Virus record (IMG/VR): IMGVR_UViG_3300028829_005743
Coordinates: 1 to 26,797 of that record
Origin: a virus
Length of the DNA stretch: 26,797 nucleotides
Reading direction: 5' to 3' (one strand)
Shown here in pieces: positions 3-25,666 of the stretch. Position 1 is the first letter of the stretch, and each line of letters starts with the position of its first letter. The position numbers and the translations under genes were made by a program. The notes under the pieces are model-generated. The model did not search any database, was not told the DNA's origin, and saw only the letters and a list, made by a program, of their open reading frames with translations.

Positions 3-3000
3 TTGCTAAAGAAAGTAGAATCATCATCACCTCTCCAAAAAAAGAAATCTGATAAAAATAATAGATTTTATGTCGAAAAACTTAAAAGTGAAGTAGTAAA
101 TCAAGTTGAACCTCACGATGTTACTATAATTTCGAGTAGTACAGATACAGAAATTAAAAAAATAAAATCCTTTGGGAAACTACCTGCTAATTACGGCCAC
201 AGAGACATAGTTGATATTCAACTTACAGATGATATACTGCAATCTTCTAATCAAATCACATTTTATAGTATGACTGAACTCGGTGATCCGTATACACAAC
301 ACAGTGGTTTGGAAGATGAGATTTCACTTAATTGGGGAAACTTCAGAGAAGGTGTGAGTTTCTACTATCCAACCATTTCAAAAAAATCATTAGATACAGA
401 TGAGTACCACATGAGTATATACATGAACCACATCACCGAGAGTGGTTATGATAAAAACAGACTTCTGGCAGAAGTAAAATCAAATAGTGCATTAAACGGA
501 GAGATTGTTAGATTGGTTCTTAATGAAGATGAGAATACGGAAATTTTCTATGAATTTCTATTTGATGGTACACTAGAAGGAACTCATTACACAATCACAG
601 AGTTGAATGAGACAATTTCTCCAAATTTAAATAAACCTTTGATAGTCCACTCTCCTGAACTTGAAAATTGCAAAGTTAGAATAGATAAAAATCAACTTAC
701 ACCTGGGTTGCACAAGTTGTATATATTACTATTAGATTCATCTGATCAACCAATTGGTGAAGAGTCAAAAATAGAGATGTACAACAATCCAATTATTTAT
801 GATGTAGAGACTCGTAAAAACTTAGTTAAAAAATCATACACCTATTCAACAAATATAAAATCTAAATTTGGAAAGGGAATAGATGCTTCGGATAATTTTT
901 TGGTTATTGGAAATCCGGTAGATAGGAAGTACTACACAGATTATACAACATCATATACGGCCGGAAGTGCATATGTATTTAGGGTAAACGAACAAAATTT
1001 AGACTTCGTTGAAAAAATTTACGGTGAAGATAACTTTGAAAACGAATTTAGTTCAGAATTCGGAAACGATATATCTGTACTCGGAAGTAACTTTCTAGTT
1101 GGGAGTCATTCAACAGAAATGACGAATATTAACATAAACGAAAGTGGTGGAATTAAAAAACTTGATATTGAAGACTTAGAATTCGGTGCAACAAAATATT
1201 TAGACGAGAACTATAATACAAACGAAGCACTGATAACTGATTACGAACTTGATTTAAATAGTGAGGTGGGAGATGCGATAGTAAAAGTAAAAATAGATGA
1301 TTTGAACATAAATAAATCACTACTCAGTGAAGCAACATTAAAAGCAAACTTTATTGATACGGGTTACGAAACTTTGAGAATTTCTGATGTGGATGGTGAA
1401 TTAACTGAATCTATAAACGGAGTGTATAGGTTAGTAAAATCCCCAATTAATGTTGTATCGGGTTGTGATATAGATTTAAATTCAATGAATCGTGTTTACA
1501 TGAATAAACATAACTGGTCGGTGTTTTACGATAAGTTACGAAGTTGTTGGGTTCTTACTGATAAACCTAATATATCAGTTGAATATGAAATACCATGTAG
1601 TTGGAGTAATACTCTTGAAATATTTGAACGAATTAATTTAATAAGTGAGTTTAATTTGTTGACCGAAGAGATGCTGACAAGTGCGTTTGCGTTGTATAAT
1701 ATAAGTGACCAAGATACGATAACTAAATGGAAAGCACGAACACAAACTAGAATTCCTAGCATACAAATTCGGTACGCGGATTTAATCAGAGAACTTGAGT
1801 CAATTACTAAACTTGAATTAAACGGAGAACTTATCGAAGAGTTGTTTTATTTGTATAGTTCAAATTCAAGAAAACGAATCGGTGTAGACATACTGAATAG
1901 GTGGAAAGAGTCTGATGGTAATTTAGGGATGTTACCTTTTATATATGAACTAGATTCAGTTAACCCCATTTTTTTAAATTTTAATTTATTGGTTAAAACT
2001 TTGGACATCTATAAATTAAAAGATTATGAAATACTAAAATCATGGTCAGTTAAACTTGGTTATGAACACCTTCTTGGTGATTTATTGAGAGAAATTAGAC
2101 CAAGTTACCATGATAAATTATCATTATATAATCTACGGGTATTAAGTAAAATTGCATTGGACTTTATAAATCAAAGAAAATATAACTCACTGCCCTCGGT
2201 TGAAAATCAGTGTTCCGATGACGAAAACTTTCATTTAACTGAAGAGGAACTTGTTAGTTATAGACAAAAATGGAAACCACGTGTAGATAGTGGGTTTTTG
2301 TTGAGTGATGTATTCAAAGATATAAATGAAAACATAAATATCAATTTTGCATTGTCAAGTGAGTCATCCGAAGATGAACTTCCAATGAATTTCAAATCAG
2401 GAGTTGGAACTCTTGGTGATAAAGTTGTTAATGTATATTCAAAAAATGATACAACAGGTCAAACTTCATCATTAACATGGGGCATATATCGTGATGAAAC
2501 AAAGATAGTAGGAAATCACATACACTTTTATATCAACTTACTTCCCGACACCGAACTTGATAGTACATTAGTCTTTGTGTACAATTCTGTAAAGTCCGCA
2601 ATTAACGGGTATGTATATTATTACTCAATGGACAAAACTAACAATAAATGTAATAAACTAAAAAGAATGAAAACCAACAAGACATCATATTCATGTAAAA
2701 AACAATATGGTCATTCCGTAAGTTTAAGTAAAAACTTCATTTCAGTTGGGTCTCCTGTGCTTGGCAATTTTAATATTGATGAAATTACTACATTTGGTGG
2801 AAGGTCATTGGTATCGTTTGGGGAGTCTGATAAACTTTTTATAGAGTATGATATGATACACCCTACTTATATAAATCAACTTAGTAAAAAGGTTGTGGGT
2901 TCTATTATTGCATATGACCACTCGGCTATACGAGACAATAAACGTCATTATATAGGAAATATATTCTATAAGAATGGTATTATAGCACTTACCGATAGAA

Positions 3001-3830
3001 GTGGGTATTTCTCAGATGTACTAAGCAACAGTGGTGTGTCTGGATTTGAGTTAGAGTTTAAATCTATGCATACCTTATATGAAAACGAAATATTGTGTAA
3101 AGTTGAACCACATGAATTTAATTTCAGCACAAATCCCACATCCGTAGCAACTGGAAGTGCCTCGTATGATATAAATCAAGATGGAAAATTTGATATTATT
3201 GATGCATCCTACATATTTAAATACATAATGGGTGAAGTTGGTGATATAGAAATAACCGATGATGAGATAATAGAAAGTGAAACATCAATCAAGTTGTCAG
3301 ATAAAAATAAGTGGCCAAAGCAAGATATATTGATGACAGAATCAGAAGATGCTTTGTTGATGGATTTATTTTTTAGTTCTGATGTAATTGAAAATCGTCC
3401 AGTACACGATAAAATAGTATCAAATTTAAAAGAAAAATATGATAATGGAGAGTTTGATATTAACGGAGACGGAAAAACTGATGAAGTTGATGCGAATTTA
3501 TTATTAAGATATTTCATAGGAAGACGTGGAGCATATTTAACTCGTGATTTGGTAAGTAAATATAACGATTCATCTAGAACAGATTCAAATAGTATAGTGA
3601 AGTTTCTAGATGAAAAGACTGGCAAAAACTTAGGTCGTGAAATATTAAAAGATTTTCAAGACTTTTCTGAAAATGACAAACAAGATTCTACTGGAAGTTA
3701 TCTTGCTCCATATGCAACTACAATTGGATTATATAGTGGTTTGGAACTTGCTATGGTTGCAAAATTAGGCAAGCCTGTGAAAATACTTCCGAACTATCCT
3801 ATAAACTTTTTAATAAAATTTGATAATTAA
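3..3830 (+). CDS. Large modular adhesin / tail-associated protein, 5' end outside window
   Basis: The frame is open to the left edge, so the N-terminus is missing; the TTG at position 3 is not a credible start. About 1,275 residues are visible. Numbering from position 3, FG-GAP/beta-propeller-like strands occur near 289-308 (KFGKGIDASDNFLVIGNP), 352-370 (EFGNDISVLGSNFLVGSH) and 901-920 (QYGHSVSLSKNFISVGSP). A mostly helical region (about 550-780) with a recurring Trp (W576, W634, W681, W757) separates the propeller blocks. Two dockerin-like Ca-binding loops lie near the C-terminus: D1056-I-N-Q-D-G-K-F-D-I-I-D and D1152-I-N-G-D-G-K-T-D-E-V-D. Such modules are typical of surface adhesion or carbohydrate-associated proteins. 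By inference this is a virion surface or tail-fibre-like receptor-binding protein. I see no chaperone or peptidase domain. The virion role is inferred; the domain motifs are directly visible. Confidence 0.7.
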   Translation: MLKKVESSSPLQKKKSDKNNRFYVEKLKSEVVNQVEPHDVTIISSSTDTEIKKIKSFGKLPANYGHRDIVDIQLTDDILQSSNQITFYSMTELGDPYTQHSGLEDEISLNWGNFREGVSFYYPTISKKSLDTDEYHMSIYMNHITESGYDKNRLLAEVKSNSALNGEIVRLVLNEDENTEIFYEFLFDGTLEGTHYTITELNETISPNLNKPLIVHSPELENCKVRIDKNQLTPGLHKLYILLLDSSDQPIGEESKIEMYNNPIIYDVETRKNLVKKSYTYSTNIKSKFGKGIDASDNFLVIGNPVDRKYYTDYTTSYTAGSAYVFRVNEQNLDFVEKIYGEDNFENEFSSEFGNDISVLGSNFLVGSHSTEMTNININESGGIKKLDIEDLEFGATKYLDENYNTNEALITDYELDLNSEVGDAIVKVKIDDLNINKSLLSEATLKANFIDTGYETLRISDVDGELTESINGVYRLVKSPINVVSGCDIDLNSMNRVYMNKHNWSVFYDKLRSCWVLTDKPNISVEYEIPCSWSNTLEIFERINLISEFNLLTEEMLTSAFALYNISDQDTITKWKARTQTRIPSIQIRYADLIRELESITKLELNGELIEELFYLYSSNSRKRIGVDILNRWKESDGNLGMLPFIYELDSVNPIFLNFNLLVKTLDIYKLKDYEILKSWSVKLGYEHLLGDLLREIRPSYHDKLSLYNLRVLSKIALDFINQRKYNSLPSVENQCSDDENFHLTEEELVSYRQKWKPRVDSGFLLSDVFKDINENININFALSSESSEDELPMNFKSGVGTLGDKVVNVYSKNDTTGQTSSLTWGIYRDETKIVGNHIHFYINLLPDTELDSTLVFVYNSVKSAINGYVYYYSMDKTNNKCNKLKRMKTNKTSYSCKKQYGHSVSLSKNFISVGSPVLGNFNIDEITTFGGRSLVSFGESDKLFIEYDMIHPTYINQLSKKVVGSIIAYDHSAIRDNKRHYIGNIFYKNGIIALTDRSGYFSDVLSNSGVSGFELEFKSMHTLYENEILCKVEPHEFNFSTNPTSVATGSASYDINQDGKFDIIDASYIFKYIMGEVGDIEITDDEIIESETSIKLSDKNKWPKQDILMTESEDALLMDLFFSSDVIENRPVHDKIVSNLKEKYDNGEFDINGDGKTDEVDANLLLRYFIGRRGAYLTRDLVSKYNDSSRTDSNSIVKFLDEKTGKNLGREILKDFQDFSENDKQDSTGSYLAPYATTIGLYSGLELAMVAKLGKPVKILPNYPINFLIKFDN

Positions 3831-4526: not shown

Positions 4527-5053
4527 AAAATAAATCCTATTGTTTAGGATTGGATATCAGTTCAACTGTAGTAGGTTATAGTGTATCCTCTTCTAAAAAT
4601 AAAGTAACTCATGCTGGATACATTGATATTCGTAAAGAAACGAGTATCAAGCAAAAAGCACACGGTGTAGCACAAATACTAGATAAGTTAGAAATAGAAC
4701 CATCTGTAATTATAGTAGAAGATACATTAAGTGGATTTGGTGGGGGTAGAACAAGTCAACAGACTATTGTCAAGTTGGCAAAGTGCAATGCAGTAATAAG
4801 TTATGTAATAGAAGCATTGTATGAATTGGACGTAGAACACGTAAATGTGTCGTCTCTTCGCAAGGTTGTATTCGGAAAAAGTCGTGAACAAGGAGTTGAT
4901 AGTAAAACTTTTGTACGTGAACAACTTGAGAAAAAGATTGATTTAAATGAATTTATTGTCTATAATAGTAGAAAAAATTATGATAAAAGGAACTACGATA
5001 TGTTGGACGCAACGGTAGCATCGCTATATCATTGGTATACTATTGACAATTGA
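4523..5053 (+). CDS. RuvC-like Holliday junction resolvase
   Basis: 176 residues, RNase H-fold resolvase family. The first strand motif is CLGLDISSTVVGYS with catalytic Asp D11. The second acidic motif is VIIVEDT with E66, and the C-terminal acidic helix is DMLDATVASLYHW with D159 and D162. This matches the D-E-D/D arrangement and usual length of RuvC (about 170). Cellular RuvC cuts Holliday junctions symmetrically. In a T4-like phage the expected job is resolving branched replicative DNA before packaging, the role T4 gives to gp49 (endonuclease VII). The stop overlaps the primase ATG (TGATG), so the two are probably translationally coupled. The start lies inside a perfect inverted repeat and lacks a clear ribosome binding site. 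Family assignment is confident; the exact substrate is inferred. Confidence 0.85.
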   Translation: MQNKSYCLGLDISSTVVGYSVSSSKNKVTHAGYIDIRKETSIKQKAHGVAQILDKLEIEPSVIIVEDTLSGFGGGRTSQQTIVKLAKCNAVISYVIEALYELDVEHVNVSSLRKVVFGKSREQGVDSKTFVREQLEKKIDLNEFIVYNSRKNYDKRNYDMLDATVASLYHWYTIDN

Positions 5054-5979
5054 TGGGGATTTCCGAACAAAAGTTATATGCCTTGTTGCAGAAGGTGTTA
5101 GGTGAAGGTAAAATCGTTTCTAAAGACGAAGCAATGTTTGTGTGTCCGTTTTCACATCACCACAAACCAAAGTTAGCAGTTAATCTTACAACGCAACGGT
5201 GGCAAAGTTGGATTGATACAAATGCCAAAGGTCGTAGTATTTTTTCGTTATTCAAAAGAATGCAGGTTCCAAGCAATTATTTTGCAGAGTTATCTAAAAT
5301 TGTTAAACTTCCAAAAAACACTAAACTTGCAGATACCGAAGAGCAATTTGTATCATTGCCTTATGAATTTAAAAGATTGACCGAAACACATACTGATTTT
5401 TCTTATTCTAAAGCAATGAAGTATTTAAAAAATCGTGGAATTAAATCGTATGACATTGAAAGATACGATATAGGATATTGTGACAAAGGAGATTATGCAG
5501 GTCGTATCATTGTTCCATCATTTGATGTAGACAACAAATTAAATTACTTTCTTGCAAGAGATTTTACAGGTAATGCCTATTTGAAGTATAAGAACCCACC
5601 TGTGAGCAAAGATGTGGTTGTATTCGAAAACCAAATAGATTTCTCTGAACCTTTGATTTTATGCGAAGGTGTTTTTGATGCGATGGCAATCCGTAGAAAT
5701 GCAATTGCTTTACTTGGAAAAAATATTCCAAGCAAACTTAAAATGCGTTTGATAGAACATGGTGTAAAAGAAGTTAGTATTGTATTAGATAATGATGCGT
5801 ATAAAAACGCATTGCATATATCAGAAACTTTAATGAACGATAATATAAAAGTAAAATTGGTAAGGATGGGAAATGAAGACGCAGCCGATTTGGGATTTAA
5901 CAAAATTATTCATAAAATCAGAGAAACTAATCTTCTTGATTTTAGTGAATTGATGAAGCAAAAGTTATGCATGAATTAA
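5053..5979 (+). CDS. DnaG/gp61-like DNA primase with Toprim domain
   Basis: About 308 residues, starting at the ATG that overlaps the resolvase stop. The N-terminal region carries the primase zinc-ribbon framework (VCPFSHHHKPKLAVNLTTQ followed by RWQSWIDTNAKGRS), but most metal ligands are altered: only the first Cys of the usual two CxxC/H pairs remains. The catalytic Toprim domain is intact, with PLILCEGVFDAMAI (Glu near 205) and VSIVLDNDAYKNA (Asp-Asn-Asp near 246-248). An RNAP-core-like segment (GRIIVPSFDVDNKLNYFLAR) precedes it. The enzyme makes RNA primers for lagging-strand synthesis, normally with a gp41-type helicase that is not in this window. It overlaps the next gene by 13 bases, consistent with an operon of DNA-metabolism genes. 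Confidence 0.85.
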   Translation: MGISEQKLYALLQKVLGEGKIVSKDEAMFVCPFSHHHKPKLAVNLTTQRWQSWIDTNAKGRSIFSLFKRMQVPSNYFAELSKIVKLPKNTKLADTEEQFVSLPYEFKRLTETHTDFSYSKAMKYLKNRGIKSYDIERYDIGYCDKGDYAGRIIVPSFDVDNKLNYFLARDFTGNAYLKYKNPPVSKDVVVFENQIDFSEPLILCEGVFDAMAIRRNAIALLGKNIPSKLKMRLIEHGVKEVSIVLDNDAYKNALHISETLMNDNIKVKLVRMGNEDAADLGFNKIIHKIRETNLLDFSELMKQKLCMN

Positions 5980-6671
5980 AAACTAATTTAAAGAATGTAG
6001 AAAAAGTATATCATCTCGCTGATATTCATATACGTAACGTAAAAAGACACACAGAGTATTCAGCTGTTTTTGATAATTTTTATGAACAAGTTAAAAAAGA
6101 CAATCTTGATAATGCTATTATCTTTGTTGGAGGAGATATTGCTCATGCCAAAACAGAAATGTCACCGGAACTTATTCAGCAAATTTCATCATTTCTTCGT
6201 AAATGTTCTCAGTTACATCCTACCGTTGTAATTGCAGGTAACCATGATTGTAATTTAAATAATCCTGATCGTCTTGATGTATTATCTCCTATTATGGATA
6301 TGATGGATGATGATAATCTTTTTTATTTAAAAGATACCGGTGTATATAAAATCGGTGATGTTGCGATAAGTGTGTTTGGTATATTTGAAGAACCAACTGA
6401 ATACATACATGGTAATGAAATTGATGATCCATCAATTAATACAAAGATTGCAGTTTATCACGGAGCAATAAGAAGAAGTACAACAGATATTGGTTATATT
6501 GTAGTTGGGGGAGACTTAACACTTCCACAATTTGATGGATATGATATTGTCATGCTCGGTGATATTCACAAATATCAAGTTCTACAAGAGTACAAAACCG
6601 AACATAGATTTATACCAGAAAGTAAATTAGATTCATATAAACTAGATGGGTGGGATGTGTGTAATGACTAA
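5967..6671 (+). CDS. SbcD/gp47-like nuclease subunit, N-terminal metallophosphoesterase part (split gene)
   Basis: 234 residues. All five calcineurin-like phosphoesterase motifs are present: HLADIH (D19, H21), GGDIAH (D57), GNHD (N92, H93), VYHGAI (H165) and MLGDIHK (D199, H201). Family members continue past this point into a GSxIQQNHGE segment; here that segment is found 900 bases downstream at the start of the next nuclease ORF. Homology to gp47 ends near K210. The last 24 residues (TEHRFIPESKLDSYKLDGWD and four more) are foreign and resemble a short RFIPxSKxxxYxxxGW domain I recall from phage proteins. So the gene is interrupted by an insertion. The catalytic centre is complete, but the capping and partner-binding part is now on a separate polypeptide. 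The start codon overlaps the primase end. Confidence 0.85.
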   Translation: MHELKTNLKNVEKVYHLADIHIRNVKRHTEYSAVFDNFYEQVKKDNLDNAIIFVGGDIAHAKTEMSPELIQQISSFLRKCSQLHPTVVIAGNHDCNLNNPDRLDVLSPIMDMMDDDNLFYLKDTGVYKIGDVAISVFGIFEEPTEYIHGNEIDDPSINTKIAVYHGAIRRSTTDIGYIVVGGDLTLPQFDGYDIVMLGDIHKYQVLQEYKTEHRFIPESKLDSYKLDGWDVCND

Positions 6672-7557
6672 GATTTTAATAAATTGTATTGATCTGGACA
6701 TAGGTGATATTTTATTTGCAAGTAGTGTTGCTAAAAAAATAAAAGAAGAATCTCCGTGGGAAACATCCTGTCAACTTGAGTTTAATGTAAATTATTTACA
6801 ACCACTTGAACTTTTGAATAACAACCCATACATTGACAAAGTTTACTATAAAGATTCAGGTAGTGGTTATACTGATATTTTTGACATAAACAAAAGTAGT
6901 CACGAATTAAATCTTTCCACATCTGTGGTTTCTCAATACCAAAGAATGTGCAATATTAAAAATTTCAACGATACCTTTGAGATTTTTACAAATCCTGTAA
7001 GTGATTATTCAATTGAGTGTAGCATGAAGGAACTTGTTGAAATTGAGTATTGGAATTCTGACATAATAAAAGTTTGTTATGTAATGGATTGGGATAGAAA
7101 AAGTTTCCCGTTAAACAATTCAACTGATAGACCAATTACACGAAATGCTCATTCAATAATTGAATCACTAAAAGGTAATGAACAAATTATGCTATTTGCG
7201 ATAGGGATTGAATCTAAAGATTCTAAAAAGTTTCCAAGTATAAACTCAGCAAGCAAATTTAGCTTTACTGCAAGTTTAATTAAAAATTCTGATTATGTAA
7301 TTGGTCCAGAAGGGTGTCTTACCAATTTAAGTTCTGCAATTGGAACACGCACAATAATAACAACTGATTACATTCATGGTGTATATGGACCCAATGGTAC
7401 TAAGGTAGATACAAATAAAACTTATATAGAACCATTTCTAGGACCTCGTAAGTATTTTCCGTCAGGAGGTCATATACATCTTGATCCCAATTTAACTGAT
7501 CAAGAAGTTGGAAACGAAATTTTGAAGATTATATCATATGGAAGATAAAGAAGAGTA
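6586..7557 (+). mobile_element. Putative ~965-bp insertion in the gp47-gp46 gene, flanked by 7-bp direct repeats
   Basis: AAGAGTA occurs at 6586-6592 and again at 7551-7557, 965 bases apart. Both copies lie at the same codon phase: GAG is a codon at 6588 in the upstream ORF and at 7553 in the downstream ORF. Removing one copy plus the intervening sequence joins QVLQEY directly to IKVKRHNANKPVVVYSGSM, restoring one uninterrupted nuclease reading frame. The block carries a short RFIP...GW domain fragment and a complete glycosyltransferase-like gene. No transposase, homing endonuclease or inverted ends are visible, so the mechanism is unknown. The repeat and frame arithmetic are seen directly; calling it an insertion is inference from family structure. 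Confidence 0.5.
6664..7548 (+). CDS. GT9/heptosyltransferase-like glycosyltransferase
   Basis: 294 residues from the ATG at 6664; an in-frame ATG at 6646 would add six residues and overlap the upstream gene further. The N-terminal Rossmann-like start is KILINCIDLDIGDILFASSV, followed by a LNNNPYIDKVYY segment of the kind seen in GT9 proteins. The C-terminal donor-binding region is YVIGPEGCLTNLSSAIGTR, which aligns with the GPDSGxxHLAxAxGTP motif of ADP-heptose-type transferases. Enzymes of this fold add sugars to LPS or other acceptors; in phages they may glycosylate virion proteins or DNA, or modify host surface sugars. The substrate cannot be told from sequence. It lies inside the split nuclease gene, overlapping the fragments by 8 and 11 bases, so expression is likely coupled to them. 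Confidence 0.65.
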   Translation: MTKILINCIDLDIGDILFASSVAKKIKEESPWETSCQLEFNVNYLQPLELLNNNPYIDKVYYKDSGSGYTDIFDINKSSHELNLSTSVVSQYQRMCNIKNFNDTFEIFTNPVSDYSIECSMKELVEIEYWNSDIIKVCYVMDWDRKSFPLNNSTDRPITRNAHSIIESLKGNEQIMLFAIGIESKDSKKFPSINSASKFSFTASLIKNSDYVIGPEGCLTNLSSAIGTRTIITTDYIHGVYGPNGTKVDTNKTYIEPFLGPRKYFPSGGHIHLDPNLTDQEVGNEILKIISYGR

Positions 7558-9859
7558 TATAAAGGTAAAACGACACAACGCAAATAAACCTGTCGTGGTT
7601 TATTCGGGAAGCATGATTCAACAAAATCATGGTGAAAAACCAGTCGGTCATGGATATGTTATGTGGGACATTCCAAACAGAACACATACCCACCACGAAG
7701 TCCAAAACGATTATGGGTATTATACAATAGAAGTTCGTGACGGAAAGTGTGTAAGTGATTTAAGTCAACTTCCAAAAAAAGCAAGATTGCGTGTAAAGGT
7801 ATTTAACACAACTGCAACGGAAACTAAAGAAATCATTGCTGAAATTCGCAAGCAAACCAACATTACAGATTTAAATGTAACACGATGTGACGCAATATCA
7901 GAAGCAAAGAAGTATGATCGTGACAACAAATTTGACTTTGGTGATATATCGTTAGTTCAGGTTCAGAATAATTTGATAGAAGATTATTTAAGACGTAATT
8001 TTGTGGTGGAGGATGAACAAGTTAAAACCGCACTTGATATAAACAAAGAAATAAACGAAAAACTCATAATAAAAGAAACACTTAGAAATTGTATTTGGAA
8101 ACCAAAGAAATTTGAGTTTGGAAATATGTTTAGTTACGGAGACGGTAACATTGTTGACTTTTCTAATATGAAAAGTGTTATGGGATTGTTCGCATCTAAT
8201 GCAAGTGGTAAAAGTAGTGTTATGAGTGCTTTGAGTTTCTGTCTGTTTGACAAATGTGATCGTGCATTCAAAGCTGCTCATGTACTGAACACACAAACAG
8301 ATTCCTTTTACTGTAAATTAAATTTTGAAATATCGGGAGTAAACTATTACATAGATAGAACTGCAACTACTAAAAAAAATGGAGATGTTACCGTTGTTGT
8401 TGATTTCTGGAAGTTAGATGAAGATGGTCAACAATTATCTTTGAACGGAGAACAGCGGGCGGGAACAAATGCAGCTATTCGTGATCATGTTGGTTCGTAT
8501 GATGACTTTGTTCTTACTGCACTTAGTTTGCAAAATAACAATGCGATTTTTATAGACAAAAGTCAAAGTGAAAGAAAGGATTTGCTTGCTCAGTTCATGG
8601 GCATTGATACATTTGATCAACTACATTCAACTGCATCTGAAGACATCAAAGAAATTAATGCTTTGTTGAAACGATTTAATCGTGAAGATTTTGATGAAAC
8701 ATTATCCGATATCCAAGAAAAACTTGAAGATGTTAAAACTAGATACACAGAACAAGATAGTAAAACTAATGTGGCACTACTTGAACAGAAACGTTTCAAT
8801 AAACAACTATCAGATAAAAATTCTCAATTCAAGAATTGTTCTTTTGACGAATCATCGGTGGACATAGATAAACTTGAGTTTAATAAAAAGAACTTACACG
8901 AACGACTAGATGTTGCTAAAGAAAATAGAAACGATGAATCTGATAGAAAAAAACAATTAGTAACGAACAGAAAAACTAAATCAACCGAATTATCCTCACT
9001 TGATGGTACAGAAGAAAAGTATGTTAAAGTTCTAGCAATCCGTGAAGAAATAACAACCGTTGAAAAAGACTTAGCAGTTCTTCGTACATCTGTAAATGCT
9101 AAATTAGACAAACTCAAACACTACGATAGTCACAAATATGATCCTAAGTGTAAGTTTTGTGTAACTAATTCTAAAAATCTTATAGAAAGTGCTTCACAAA
9201 CAAAAGAAGAACTTGATAAAGATAAAGCAGCTGCTGATGATCTTGTAACACAAAAAAATGAATTGTTAAAAATATTAGATGAATGTAAAGATGTTGAATC
9301 CAATTATGAAAAACTCGGTGAGTTAAAATCTACGACAACTCATCTTACCTATGAAATTAACGAAGCAGATTCTAAGGTTCTCGCACTATCTAGTATGATA
9401 GAATCGTTGGAAAAGGATATTGTTATTAACGATAAAAATATAGAATCATATTACGAATGCAAGGACATCATAGAGTTTAATAAAAAACTACAATTGGATG
9501 TAGATAAAATTCAGAACGAGTTAATCAACATAAACGCTATAGCAAATAATGAAACAGAAAAACTTCAAACTTTATTTGGTGAAGTAAAAATTGTTGAAAA
9601 AGAACACGAAGACATTTTGGCATCTATCGAAGAAGCAAAAGGTTACGAACGAAAAAAACGTGGTTACGAATTATATCTTGATGCAGTAAAACGAGATGGT
9701 ATTTCATATGAACTTATATCCAAGACAATTCCAAGCATTGAAAGTGAAGTTAATAATATTCTTTCTCAAATCGTTGATTTTGGAATGCAACTTGAAATGG
9801 ACGGAAAACATATCTATTCAAAGATTACATATGAAGATCGTCATATTAGAAATGTGTAG
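7538..9859 (+). CDS. gp47 C-terminal part fused to SbcC/gp46-like ATPase (frameshifted before the ABC signature)
   Basis: 773 residues. Residues 12-180 are the missing C-terminal part of the SbcD/gp47 nuclease (VVVYSGSMIQQNHGE, then WDIPNRTHTHHEVQNDYGYY). From about 187 it continues in frame into the SbcC/gp46 ATPase: KKFEFGNMFSYGDGN, Walker A LFASNASGKSS (K225), Q-loop region LTALSLQNNNAIFID, a long coiled coil, and a zinc hook CKFC (C538, C541). It stops at 9857 after TYEDRHIRNV, just before the ABC signature, which resumes in another frame at 9843-10133. Together the subunits would form an Mre11-Rad50-like complex that processes DNA ends for recombination-dependent replication. As written, this ORF cannot bind ATP productively because signature and Walker B are missing. 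The start is chosen at the ATG overlapping the glycosyltransferase stop. Confidence 0.85.
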   Translation: MEDKEEYIKVKRHNANKPVVVYSGSMIQQNHGEKPVGHGYVMWDIPNRTHTHHEVQNDYGYYTIEVRDGKCVSDLSQLPKKARLRVKVFNTTATETKEIIAEIRKQTNITDLNVTRCDAISEAKKYDRDNKFDFGDISLVQVQNNLIEDYLRRNFVVEDEQVKTALDINKEINEKLIIKETLRNCIWKPKKFEFGNMFSYGDGNIVDFSNMKSVMGLFASNASGKSSVMSALSFCLFDKCDRAFKAAHVLNTQTDSFYCKLNFEISGVNYYIDRTATTKKNGDVTVVVDFWKLDEDGQQLSLNGEQRAGTNAAIRDHVGSYDDFVLTALSLQNNNAIFIDKSQSERKDLLAQFMGIDTFDQLHSTASEDIKEINALLKRFNREDFDETLSDIQEKLEDVKTRYTEQDSKTNVALLEQKRFNKQLSDKNSQFKNCSFDESSVDIDKLEFNKKNLHERLDVAKENRNDESDRKKQLVTNRKTKSTELSSLDGTEEKYVKVLAIREEITTVEKDLAVLRTSVNAKLDKLKHYDSHKYDPKCKFCVTNSKNLIESASQTKEELDKDKAAADDLVTQKNELLKILDECKDVESNYEKLGELKSTTTHLTYEINEADSKVLALSSMIESLEKDIVINDKNIESYYECKDIIEFNKKLQLDVDKIQNELININAIANNETEKLQTLFGEVKIVEKEHEDILASIEEAKGYERKKRGYELYLDAVKRDGISYELISKTIPSIESEVNNILSQIVDFGMQLEMDGKHIYSKITYEDRHIRNV

Positions 9860-10133
9860 TGGAATGGAACGATTTATCAGTAGTATCGCAATGCGAGTAG
9901 CACTTATCAACGTAAGTAGTTTACCACGTTCTAATTTCCTTGTTATTGATGAAGGATGGGGTTCGTTGGACGGAGACAACATAAGTAGTGTATTTAATCT
10001 GTTTACCTATTTAAAGGGGCAGTTTGAGTTCGTGATGGTTATTAGTCATTTGGACGTAATGAGAGATATGGTGGACGAAATTATTGAAATTCAAAAAGAA
10101 GGTTCTTTTAGTAAGATAAAATACACATCATAA
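9852..10133 (+). CDS. SbcC/gp46-like ATPase, C-terminal fragment after a frameshift
   Basis: This reading frame carries the final part of the Rad50-like ATPase: ABC signature LEMCSGMERFISS, Walker B NFLVIDEGWGSLD with the D-loop, and a switch-like VISHLD. Homology begins near 9846, in the +1 frame relative to the upstream ORF. The frame is open from 9696, but the earlier part is an out-of-frame shadow. The ATG at 9852 could permit separate translation, but no ribosome binding site is evident. Joining the frames requires a +1 shift at or just before 9845; family members usually have about two more residues (WP-like) between the DxH and LE positions, so a small deletion is likely. It could be a sequencing error, a true lesion, or less likely programmed frameshifting. 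Confidence 0.75.
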   Translation: MCSGMERFISSIAMRVALINVSSLPRSNFLVIDEGWGSLDGDNISSVFNLFTYLKGQFEFVMVISHLDVMRDMVDEIIEIQKEGSFSKIKYTS

Positions 10134-10176: not shown

Positions 10177-11226
10177 ATGAGCAATTCCGAAGAAAATCAA
10201 GAAGTCCAAGAAGAAAGTCTTATCAAGGCTGGTCTTCGTAAAGGATACTTTACTCTTGTAGAAGGAGTATATGATCCTGGTATTTTAAAGGCTGTATTTT
10301 TAGCAGGAGGACCTGGATCAGGAAAATCTGCAACTGTTAATACTTTGTTTGATCTAGCTCCTCCCACCAAAAATCTATCACCAAGTGGATTAAAGGTAGT
10401 TAATAGTGATCCTGCATTTGAAATACTTCTTAAAAAAGCAGGATACGATTTAAATCTTGCTAAAATGGATGATAAAACATTTCAAACTGTTACAAGTGAT
10501 GATCCAAATAGTATACGTTCTCGGGCAAAAAAAATAATGCTTAAACAATTTGAGTTATTCAAAGAAGGTCGTCTTGGGGTCATTGTTGACGGAACTGGTG
10601 ATAATTACGATAAAATATCAAAACAAAAGAAAGTTTTAGAAAAACTTGGTTATGATTGTTATATGGTATTTGTAAATACATCACTTGATGTTGCTCAACA
10701 AAGAAATGCGGCCCGTGAACGAAAATTGAAACGATCATTAGTTAAGAATATTTGGACAGACGTTCAAAAAAATCTTGGAGCATTTCAAAATACATTCGGA
10801 AAAAACTTTGTAATTATTGACAATTCCGAAGATACACGAAGTAAAACTAAACCAGGAAGATTAGATTTAGTTCCTCATGTATTAAAAGCAACTGCACGTT
10901 TTATATCAAAACCTATTCGTAATCCTATTGGAAAAAAATGGATTAAAATGATGATGGCACATGATAAAATGACTAAAAGTGGTGATAAACGAAACCAAGT
11001 AAACGAAGAACTTGATATGGTATCTATGGAAAGTGTTGTATTACCGATGGATTTAGAACGACATTTAAGTCGTTCAATTCATGTTATCAACAAGTTCAAG
11101 TTAAATGAAAAAAGAAATCTTGCGGTGTTATCTAGATTAGTAGAAAGTTTAAATCTTAGTAGAAATCAAATGGTGAAGTACTTCCATCACATTAGAACTT
11201 TGAAATTCAAAGGAGAACAAGACTAA
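10177..11226 (+). CDS. P-loop kinase of the zeta-toxin/polynucleotide-kinase type
   Basis: 349 residues. A clear Walker A is seen in AVFLAGGPGSGKSATVN (about residues 39-55), followed by KVVNSDPAFE, a DGTGDNYDKISKQKKVLEKL segment matching the zeta/PNK-like fold, and VFVNTSLDVAQQRNAARER, which looks like the Arg-rich lid. The C-terminal 100 residues form an additional helical domain with no known motif (MVSMESVVLPMDLERHLSRS). Kinases of this superfamily phosphorylate nucleotides, nucleic-acid 5' ends or UDP-sugars; the substrate here is not determined. I recall very similar proteins in marine T4-like phages beside the nucleotidyltransferase fusion, as here (12103-14619). The stop overlaps the next ATG (TAATG), so these genes form one operon. 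Confidence 0.75.
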   Translation: MSNSEENQEVQEESLIKAGLRKGYFTLVEGVYDPGILKAVFLAGGPGSGKSATVNTLFDLAPPTKNLSPSGLKVVNSDPAFEILLKKAGYDLNLAKMDDKTFQTVTSDDPNSIRSRAKKIMLKQFELFKEGRLGVIVDGTGDNYDKISKQKKVLEKLGYDCYMVFVNTSLDVAQQRNAARERKLKRSLVKNIWTDVQKNLGAFQNTFGKNFVIIDNSEDTRSKTKPGRLDLVPHVLKATARFISKPIRNPIGKKWIKMMMAHDKMTKSGDKRNQVNEELDMVSMESVVLPMDLERHLSRSIHVINKFKLNEKRNLAVLSRLVESLNLSRNQMVKYFHHIRTLKFKGEQD

Positions 11227-24889: not shown

Positions 24890-25666
24890 ATGAAAATCAC
24901 AAAACAAGAACTTAGAGATATTATCAAAGAAGTCGCAGATGAAATGGGACTTTTTGAAGGACTTACTAAAGCACAAGAAAAACTTCCTGAACCACTCAAG
25001 AAGGCAATTCTTAAAAAACAAGGAAATTCTGATGATTCCGATGAAACGGAAGATGTGGAAGAAGGTCTTACCAAAGCACAAGAAAAACTTCCTGAACCAT
25101 TAAAGAAAGCAATTTTAAAGAAGCAAGGAAATTCTGATGATTCGTCCGAAGACGAAAAGGAGGATGTAGAAGAGGGTCTTACTAAAGCACAAGAAAAACT
25201 TCCAGAACCATTAAAGAAAGCAATTTTGAAGAAGCAAGGCAACTCTGATGATTCATCTGAAGATGAAGATGAAAAAGAAGAAATTGATGAAGGTAATGCT
25301 TTTGGTGCGGCTGTAAAGGCTGCACGTGAAAATGGGGAATCCGAGTTTCAAGTTGGTGGAAAAACTTATCAATTGCGAGAAAAGGTAACTGAAGAAGTTG
25401 AAGACACAGAAGAATTTACCGGAGAAGTAGAAGAAGAATGTGAAGAGTGCAATCAAGAACTTGCCGAATCATCATGTACATCCGAAGATGATGAGGATGA
25501 TGTAGAAGAAGGTAATGCGTTTGGTGCAGCTGTTAAGAAAGCAAAAGAAGACGGAGAAATTGAATTTGAAGTAGGTGGTAAAACCTATAAAGTCAGTGAA
25601 AACTGGAAAAAAATTACTTTAGCAGAAAAATTAAACAGAATTTTAGGAAATCGTAAAGTTTTGTAA
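24890..25666 (+). CDS. Acidic tandem-repeat protein with shared N-terminal helix
   Basis: 258 residues, ribosome binding site AAGGA at 24879-24883. The N-terminus KITKQELRDIIKEVADEMG matches the amphipathic helix of neighbouring genes. Three tandem units starting at residues 23, 58 and 95 share an identical 28-residue core beginning EGLTKAQEKLPEPLKKAIL, each followed by an acidic spacer of different length. Two units of a second kind follow at 134-164 and 207-237 (EGNAFGAAVK...EFxVGGKTY). A Cys-containing acidic linker (EEECEECNQELAESSC) separates them. I recall both short motifs as recurring in marine phage proteins. The acidic, modular structure beside the scaffold suggests a prohead core or internal protein. 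No catalytic motif. A strong terminator follows. Confidence 0.8.
   Translation: MKITKQELRDIIKEVADEMGLFEGLTKAQEKLPEPLKKAILKKQGNSDDSDETEDVEEGLTKAQEKLPEPLKKAILKKQGNSDDSSEDEKEDVEEGLTKAQEKLPEPLKKAILKKQGNSDDSSEDEDEKEEIDEGNAFGAAVKAARENGESEFQVGGKTYQLREKVTEEVEDTEEFTGEVEEECEECNQELAESSCTSEDDEDDVEEGNAFGAAVKKAKEDGEIEFEVGGKTYKVSENWKKITLAEKLNRILGNRKVL
24956..25288 (+). repeat. Three in-frame tandem repeats (105, 111, 117 bp)
   Basis: Units begin at 24956, 25061 and 25172. The 28-residue cores are identical in protein but differ at several synonymous codons (for example CTC versus TTA, CTT versus TTA or TTG, TCC versus TCG versus TCA). Length differences come from the acidic spacers. Duplications are therefore not recent and the amino-acid sequence has been kept. 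Confidence 0.9.
25289..25600 (+). repeat. Pair of EGNAFGAAVK repeats separated by an acidic linker
   Basis: Two 31-residue units lie at 25289-25381 and 25508-25600. Both begin EGNAFGAAVK and end VGGKTY plus five residues; they differ at about ten positions. The intervening 126 bases encode a Glu-rich, Cys-containing linker. Seen directly in the translation. Confidence 0.85.

Follow-up and report, generated by a model that had tools for sequence, protein, structure and literature searches.

A phage SbcD–SbcC nuclease gene apparently broken recurrently at one site, with related tail peptides at the breaks and a glycosyltransferase gene in one of them

We analyzed a 26,797-nt stretch of viral DNA (IMG/VR record IMGVR_UViG_3300028829_005743, positions 1 to 26,797, one strand; hereafter the window) in which the two parts of a recombination nuclease are encoded on either side of a glycosyltransferase gene. 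A DNA primase gene (5050–5979; phrog_47, E 1.1e-43) lies upstream and overlaps the start of an SbcD/Mre11-like nuclease half (5967–6671), which consists of a phosphoesterase domain and a tail and matched Pfam Metallophos (PF00149, E 2.5e-8; 35 bits against a cut-off of 21.5) and the SbcD-like family phrog_100 (E 1.7e-11). The glycosyltransferase gene (GT; 6664–7548) is complete, as the earlier note had it. It is followed by a second nuclease ORF (7538–9859) holding the last phosphoesterase strands, the capping region and an SbcC/Rad50-like ATPase, assigned from phrog_77 (SbcC-like, E 1.5e-30) and from alignment with fused relatives. A further frame (9696–10133) carries the SbcC C terminus with Walker B (phrog_77, E 1e-9; Pfam SbcC_Walker_B, E 0.0015, under its cut-off). 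N- and C-terminal parts of the ATPase are thus both present, phrog_77 covering the two frames; Pfam SMC_N stayed below its cut-off in each. All of these genes are on the plus strand, and SbcD, GT and SbcC run end to start, the overlaps of GT being 8 bp with SbcD and 11 bp with SbcC. Given these overlaps, translation of the three ORFs is probably coupled. An ORF at 10177–11226 encodes a zeta-toxin-like kinase (PF06414, E 1.6e-11).

The phosphoesterase motifs are all in the first polypeptide, and the strands that come next (VVYSGSMIQQNHGE onward) open the SbcC ORF. Between them, SbcD ends in a 25-residue tail (KTEHRFIPESKLDSYKLDGWDVCND; 6594–6668), which short-linker fused relatives lack, and the SbcC half begins with a 16-residue head (MEDKEEYIKVKRHNAN; 7538–7585), which is new compared with fused genes. 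What had been taken for a separate “RFIP...GW” fragment is this C-terminal tail, residues 210–234 of SbcD, and it was found in all 31 distinct variants of the locus described below.

Uninterrupted gp47–gp46 relatives without the block, which the earlier note had proposed to look for, do exist. A single fused SbcD–SbcC ORF with a short linker was found at 193 of the 238 distinct loci among the matches listed; these counts are not frequencies, since several of the splits were found with tail-containing queries and the census covers listed matches only. Loci without either an SbcD or an SbcC part were dropped, and L350/L412 and L411 (contig ends in the split) and L383 (SbcD truncated) were left out. 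Annotated records with one fused ORF include Microcystis phage Mel-JY01 (1066 aa), LR756501 (1202 aa) and Thermus phage phiLo. Across the site, the fused locus L068 reads QEY-NEDEN-KPVIVYAGS, to which the window aligns as QEY, tail, stop, GT, start, head and KPVVVYSGS. Judging from fused alignments of this type, the break falls after GDIH, the final metal-binding motif, and before the strand that follows it. The ancestor would most likely have been one gene for a fused SbcD–SbcC nuclease.

We then asked how stable the arrangement is. A first search with SbcD returned 25 contigs at 78%–100% identity, with GT in between in every one. Over all searches, 149 loci, many from the same contig seen repeatedly, had SbcD at ≥65% identity to that of the window and reduced to 31 distinct variants among the matches listed, the window included. 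In all 31 (SbcD identity 72%–100%), SbcD had a GW-containing tail and was followed by GT; the closest SbcD relatives beyond these among the matches listed were at 53% identity or less. The SbcD/GT overlap was 8 bp in all 31 variants, and the GT/SbcC overlap was 11 bp in 25, 14 bp in four and 8 bp in two, counted from the start codons closest to the upstream stop. Eight SbcD positions (D19, H21, D57, N92, H93, H165, D199 and H201), to which we assign presumed metal-binding or catalytic roles from the Mre11 motifs, were invariant in 31 of 31; the GDxH motif here presumably corresponds to the usual GHxH. The claim that a fused nuclease had been turned into two polypeptides with its catalytic residues intact is therefore upheld for the whole clade, though not the AAGAGTA-bounded mobile unit offered as its cause.

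Both nuclease halves and GT are under purifying selection, as indicated by low median dN/dS across 30 variants (0.086 for SbcD, 0.225 for GT and 0.056 for the N-terminal part of SbcC, from 209, 188 and 195 pairs, respectively, with dS of 0.1–1.5). These ratios bear on whether the split nuclease is simply a decaying, non-functional gene, a reading to which the window lends something, its sbcC also being frameshifted near the 3' end. The shift is caused by a 5-bp deletion near 9845 (9840–9850) and may reflect misassembly or a rare mutant; the relatives L001, L003 and L004, against which it was identified, do not have it. Together with the low dN/dS of both halves and the invariance of the presumed catalytic residues, this makes decay very unlikely. 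We also noted that protein distances of GT and SbcC were hardly correlated among GT-clade loci (Spearman 0.09, compared with 0.46 each for SbcD–SbcC and SbcD–GT), a mosaic pattern suggesting possible exchange within the locus.

The earlier note had regarded the block as an insertion with target duplication, or as a reversible recombination unit, on the strength of a 7-bp direct repeat. AAGAGTA does occur at 6586–6592 and 7551–7557 on the plus strand, each copy having the same codon phase within its ORF, and this in-phase pair is what favors either a transposon-like insertion that duplicated a 7-bp target or a reversible cassette. Phase and position had been thought to make chance less likely, which they do not. 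The heptamer occurs seven times on the plus strand of the window. In 20,000 draws of two 80-nt zones from the window, 50% of pairs shared some 7-mer and 21% shared one in a given phase, the true rates being slightly higher since draws <200 nt apart were skipped and kept in the denominator. An exact copy on both sides was found in only two of the 31 distinct variants, one of them the window itself, and the pair was missing from the other 29. The AAGAGTA pair is a chance match. Every close relative was split, with diverged ends, an outcome that the earlier note had named as refuting its reading, and no variant at 72% SbcD identity or more was without the block; nor was there a transposase, as the note had said, among the block's proteins scanned against Pfam and PHROG. 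We give transposition or a reversible cassette next to no probability. For this clade, target duplication and the reversible unit are ruled out, the repeat being at chance level and not kept and the block present in every variant.

An intron or intein whose splicing restores the full-length protein would be another way to house a gene here, and such elements typically insert in conserved nuclease domains. A related fused locus, L104, has an intein-like insert, seen by eye, in the same gene. The details speak against splicing at the window's site. The window and seven relatives gave no Rfam match at the gathering threshold, and positions 6450–7750 gave two weak sRNA matches and no intron family at a relaxed threshold. 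A Pfam scan at E 1 detected no intein family in either half, the broken ends are just 25 and 16 residues long, and the start/stop overlaps are conserved among the variants. We consider a spliced element highly improbable. The L104 insert (fused SbcDC at L104:3369–7532) sits within an active-site motif, between GNHD and C, and is a different invader of the same gene from the GT and endonuclease-like ORFs.

We next considered the inserted gene itself. An AF2 model of GT (pLDDT 75) gave Foldseek matches to 3tov (E 3.9e-9) and 1psw (E 3.9e-8), indicating a GT9 (heptosyltransferase-like) fold. The fold is common to the GT9 heptosyltransferases 3tov, E. coli 1psw and WaaC 2h1f, although identity to these in the matches was only 8%–11%; no Pfam family, curated GT9 sequence models included, matched at E ≤1. 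Other phage contigs carried relatives at 30%–37% identity, located apart from sbcD and sbcC, and in 10 of the 14 loci examined (of 15) the relative adjoined other genes of a glycosyltransferase cluster. By Pfam, the cluster of locus L222 has group 1, family 2 and group 7 glycosyltransferases. A relative of the cluster's first glycosyltransferase was present elsewhere in nine of 13 GT-clade contigs, and nine also gave a weak hit to the group 7 glycosyltransferase of the cluster. Contig G002 had four relatives of cluster genes (28%–42% identity) some 30 to 45 kb from sbcDC, all glycosyltransferases by Pfam, with the fourth below cut-off. The GT family itself was single-copy in all 13 contigs, some of which are fragments, the sbcDC-located gene being the only member. 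From the neighbors of its relatives, the cluster-gene relatives in GT-clade contigs and the lack of a second family copy, GT most likely derives from a phage glycosyltransferase cluster; we infer both the direction and the route of this move. A pattern search of cellular genomes gave 33 GT pattern matches, of which none was confirmed, a result that concerns those patterns only, and a search of annotated phages for GT gave none. SbcD had no match in 10 contigs with a free-standing GT, a search that by itself does not show absence.

The same site is split in other phages without the window-type GT. Among the matches listed there were eight further distinct loci in six lineages, and in every split lineage SbcD carried an additional tail and SbcC began at a new start. 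In one of them (L027, the 484-kb phage record LR756508), the break holds a 305-aa endonuclease-like ORF (L027:6701–7618). Its residues 35–137 matched the HNH endonuclease family phrog_1271 (E 3.5e-15), and a Pfam TnsA-like N domain was detected (E 5.8e-6). The ORF also matched the head closure family phrog_218 (residues 199–282, E 2.3e-10); residues 199–289 are 37% identical to a protein called an endonuclease in Bacillus phage Moonbeam, and a cysteine-rich region was evident by eye. Relatives of this ORF occurred at 11 loci (the best at 43% identity over residues 1–185), in which sbcD and sbcC profiles found neither gene. The earlier remark that no homing nuclease is present thus holds for the window's block, although an endonuclease-like ORF occupies the same site in LR756508. 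In L326, the gap of ∼600 bp contains an antisense 111-aa ORF (L326:5814–6149) matching the phage family phrog_30542 (E 5.8e-36); with all six frames read, forward ORFs of 96 and 68 aa overlap it. The breaks of the remaining lineages (L263, L309, L435 and L271/L380/L437) hold no gene, since the stop-to-start distance, computed from gap, tail and head lengths, is at most ∼70 nt or the ORFs overlap.

We inferred a phylogenetic tree of 76 rows from the SbcD and SbcC parts. The split and fused states required seven changes on it, gains and losses not being told apart, and the simplest reading is that one site was broken independently about seven times. Several split lineages sat beside fused ones: L263 with L332 (100/100), the L271 group with L057 (100/99), L326 with L264 and L325 (100/97) and, on long branches, L027 with L296 (99/91). 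Five of the 31 GT variants were included and formed one side of a 100/100 branch. The weaker spots are the long branches of L027 and L435 and the placements of L309 and L435, which were not starred. Counting the long-linker fused rows as having the hairpin module, its presence and absence required 10 changes.

The tails of these lineages resemble one another. A tail HMM built without a given lineage recovered that lineage's best member at E 1e-10 to 2e-4 for L027, L263, L309, L326, L271, L435 and the incomplete L411, each best tail outranking all 29,390 background pieces; the second and third members scored less well (E 0.01 to 4.9). For the GT-clade tails, six of which were scored, the resemblance was weak: the best had E 0.003 and the other five E 0.3 to 63. 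As tails were part of several search queries, the split lineages are not a random sample. No convincing Pfam family was found for the tail peptides, and a search of annotated phage records for further tailed phages returned LR756508 again and no other. In other frames of the fetched loci, the tail motif reached at least 8 bits outside sbcD only once, on the minus strand of L237 (9.5 bits). Judged from one representative per lineage, six of the seven lineages pair an acidic tail (−3 to −10) with a basic head (+2 to +6); in the window, with a tail of −2 and a head of +1, the pattern is weak.

Some fused genes have a longer linker at the same place. Six distinct loci of this kind, with gaps of 106–145 bp, were found among the matches listed. 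An AF2 model of one, L400, has an Mre11 fold in which the linker forms two strands (210–219 and 244–254), a short helix and a loop predicted with low confidence (pLDDT 53–77 for the block of the hairpin module). By analogy with this model, the break is at the tip of a predicted surface β-hairpin. The charge pattern and the L400 model together suggest that tail and head are the paired strands of a lengthened hairpin, which would dock the two polypeptides without a peptide bond. The tail model had no significant match to the long linkers (E 1.6 for L400, E 2 for L434, none for L436). In one fused locus, L306, half of a tail is still present within a single reading frame. In the tree it is placed with L411 (support 100/69, L411 by its SbcD part only), whose tail reaches GW before the contig ends; L306 looks like a re-fused split.

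Taken together, these data make us favor, with moderate confidence, a stable gene-in-pieces nuclease with hairpin-docked halves, broken at a recurrent site that was probably opened by homing endonucleases and later occupied by GT. The fused gene would have been broken at the hairpin tip directly after the last metal-binding motif, giving two polypeptides; since the halves would dock without a peptide bond, the nuclease would putatively still work through them. The ∼seven breaks would probably be the work of homing endonucleases, one of which may persist in the huge phage LR756508, and the homing gene would later have been lost or replaced by other genes, among them the GT that now occupies the window's break. 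A homing origin is plausible, with a single endonuclease-bearing lineage as its basis. Against it, an endonuclease-like ORF was present in only one of seven split lineages, in one metagenomic genome, and its nuclease part matched a head closure family as well; in the GT clade no homing endonuclease gene was found in the break, which holds GT.

Fission could also have been gradual, without a mobile element, if the nuclease's hairpin loops accommodate inserts, the linker grew, a stop and a restart arose and GT was added to the gap later by ordinary illegitimate recombination. The breaks of L263, L271/L380/L437, L309 and L435, too short for a gene, fit such a course, as do the long linkers of the six fused loci. 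It is harder to reconcile with tails that are related across lineages, several of whose nearest relatives are tailless, a pattern not easily obtained from independent growth, and with the endonuclease-like ORF at the site in LR756508. We regard gradual fission as possible but on the whole doubtful. A more speculative idea, which we put forward tentatively, is that tail and head are a traveling adaptor: a site-specific element moving between phages into one SbcDC hairpin and hosting unrelated genes, such as an endonuclease or a glycosyltransferase. Such an adaptor would bring its own strands to join the half-enzymes and would keep a permanent docking place within the nuclease gene for genes translated in step with it.

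Natural, selected cuts through catalytic domains are rare and mostly single cases. The nuclease described here is recurrently broken, with related tail peptides, and its split is real and of a known gene-in-pieces kind. Dassa et al. (2009) reportedly described fractured genes that carry split inteins together with a free-standing endonuclease; the LR756508 case is similar in having a gene in two with an endonuclease between, and a difference is that a Pfam scan of the window's two halves at E 1 found no intein halves at the broken ends. In Aeromonas phage Aeh1, according to the portions available of PMC2988022, the ribonucleotide reductase gene nrdA is split by mobE and the split enzyme is reported to be active. 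As there, one gene has become two ORFs through insertion of another gene into a region critical for function; unlike there, the target is SbcDC, a glycosyltransferase is in the break, the site was hit repeatedly with related tails and activity is only putative. The same portions describe a split of DNA polymerase gene 43 in Aeromonas phages 25 and 44RR, by a seg-like insertion or an untranslated spacer (PMC2988022). There too, related phages have the gene broken whether or not the gap contains an endonuclease, whereas the gene differs and the unrelated metabolic gene in the gap here has no counterpart in what those portions describe.

The unbroken relatives are of the fused Mre11/Rad50 (SbcD/SbcC) kind known from viruses, plasmids and others, as stated in parts of PMC3175470, in whose main text, so far as available, the word “split” is absent. 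In jumbo phages, SbcC and SbcD are nearly universal and the DNA polymerase III core is split in two (PMC7824862, available portions), and those portions make no mention of a split SbcD. A literature search over titles and abstract openings turned up no description of SbcD/SbcC being split with a gene inserted.

A single hairpin of this nuclease has apparently been cut about seven times. The related tails, the uncut relatives, one copy that may retain the invading nuclease and the long-linker fused copies make the order of invasion, split, loss, replacement and possible re-fusion testable. The recurrence suggests where Mre11-type nucleases can be split naturally. In the window's clade, moreover, a phage glycosyltransferase gene is placed within the reading series of a recombination nuclease.

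Finally, we noted two repeat-bearing ORFs elsewhere in the window. The large ORF at 3–3830 has two DxNxDGxxDxxDA-type repeats, which we take to resemble dockerin type I repeats, and the ORF at 24890–25666 has three EGLTKAQEKLPEPLKKAILKKQGNSDDS units and two EGNAFGAAVKxAxExGExEFxVGGKTY units.
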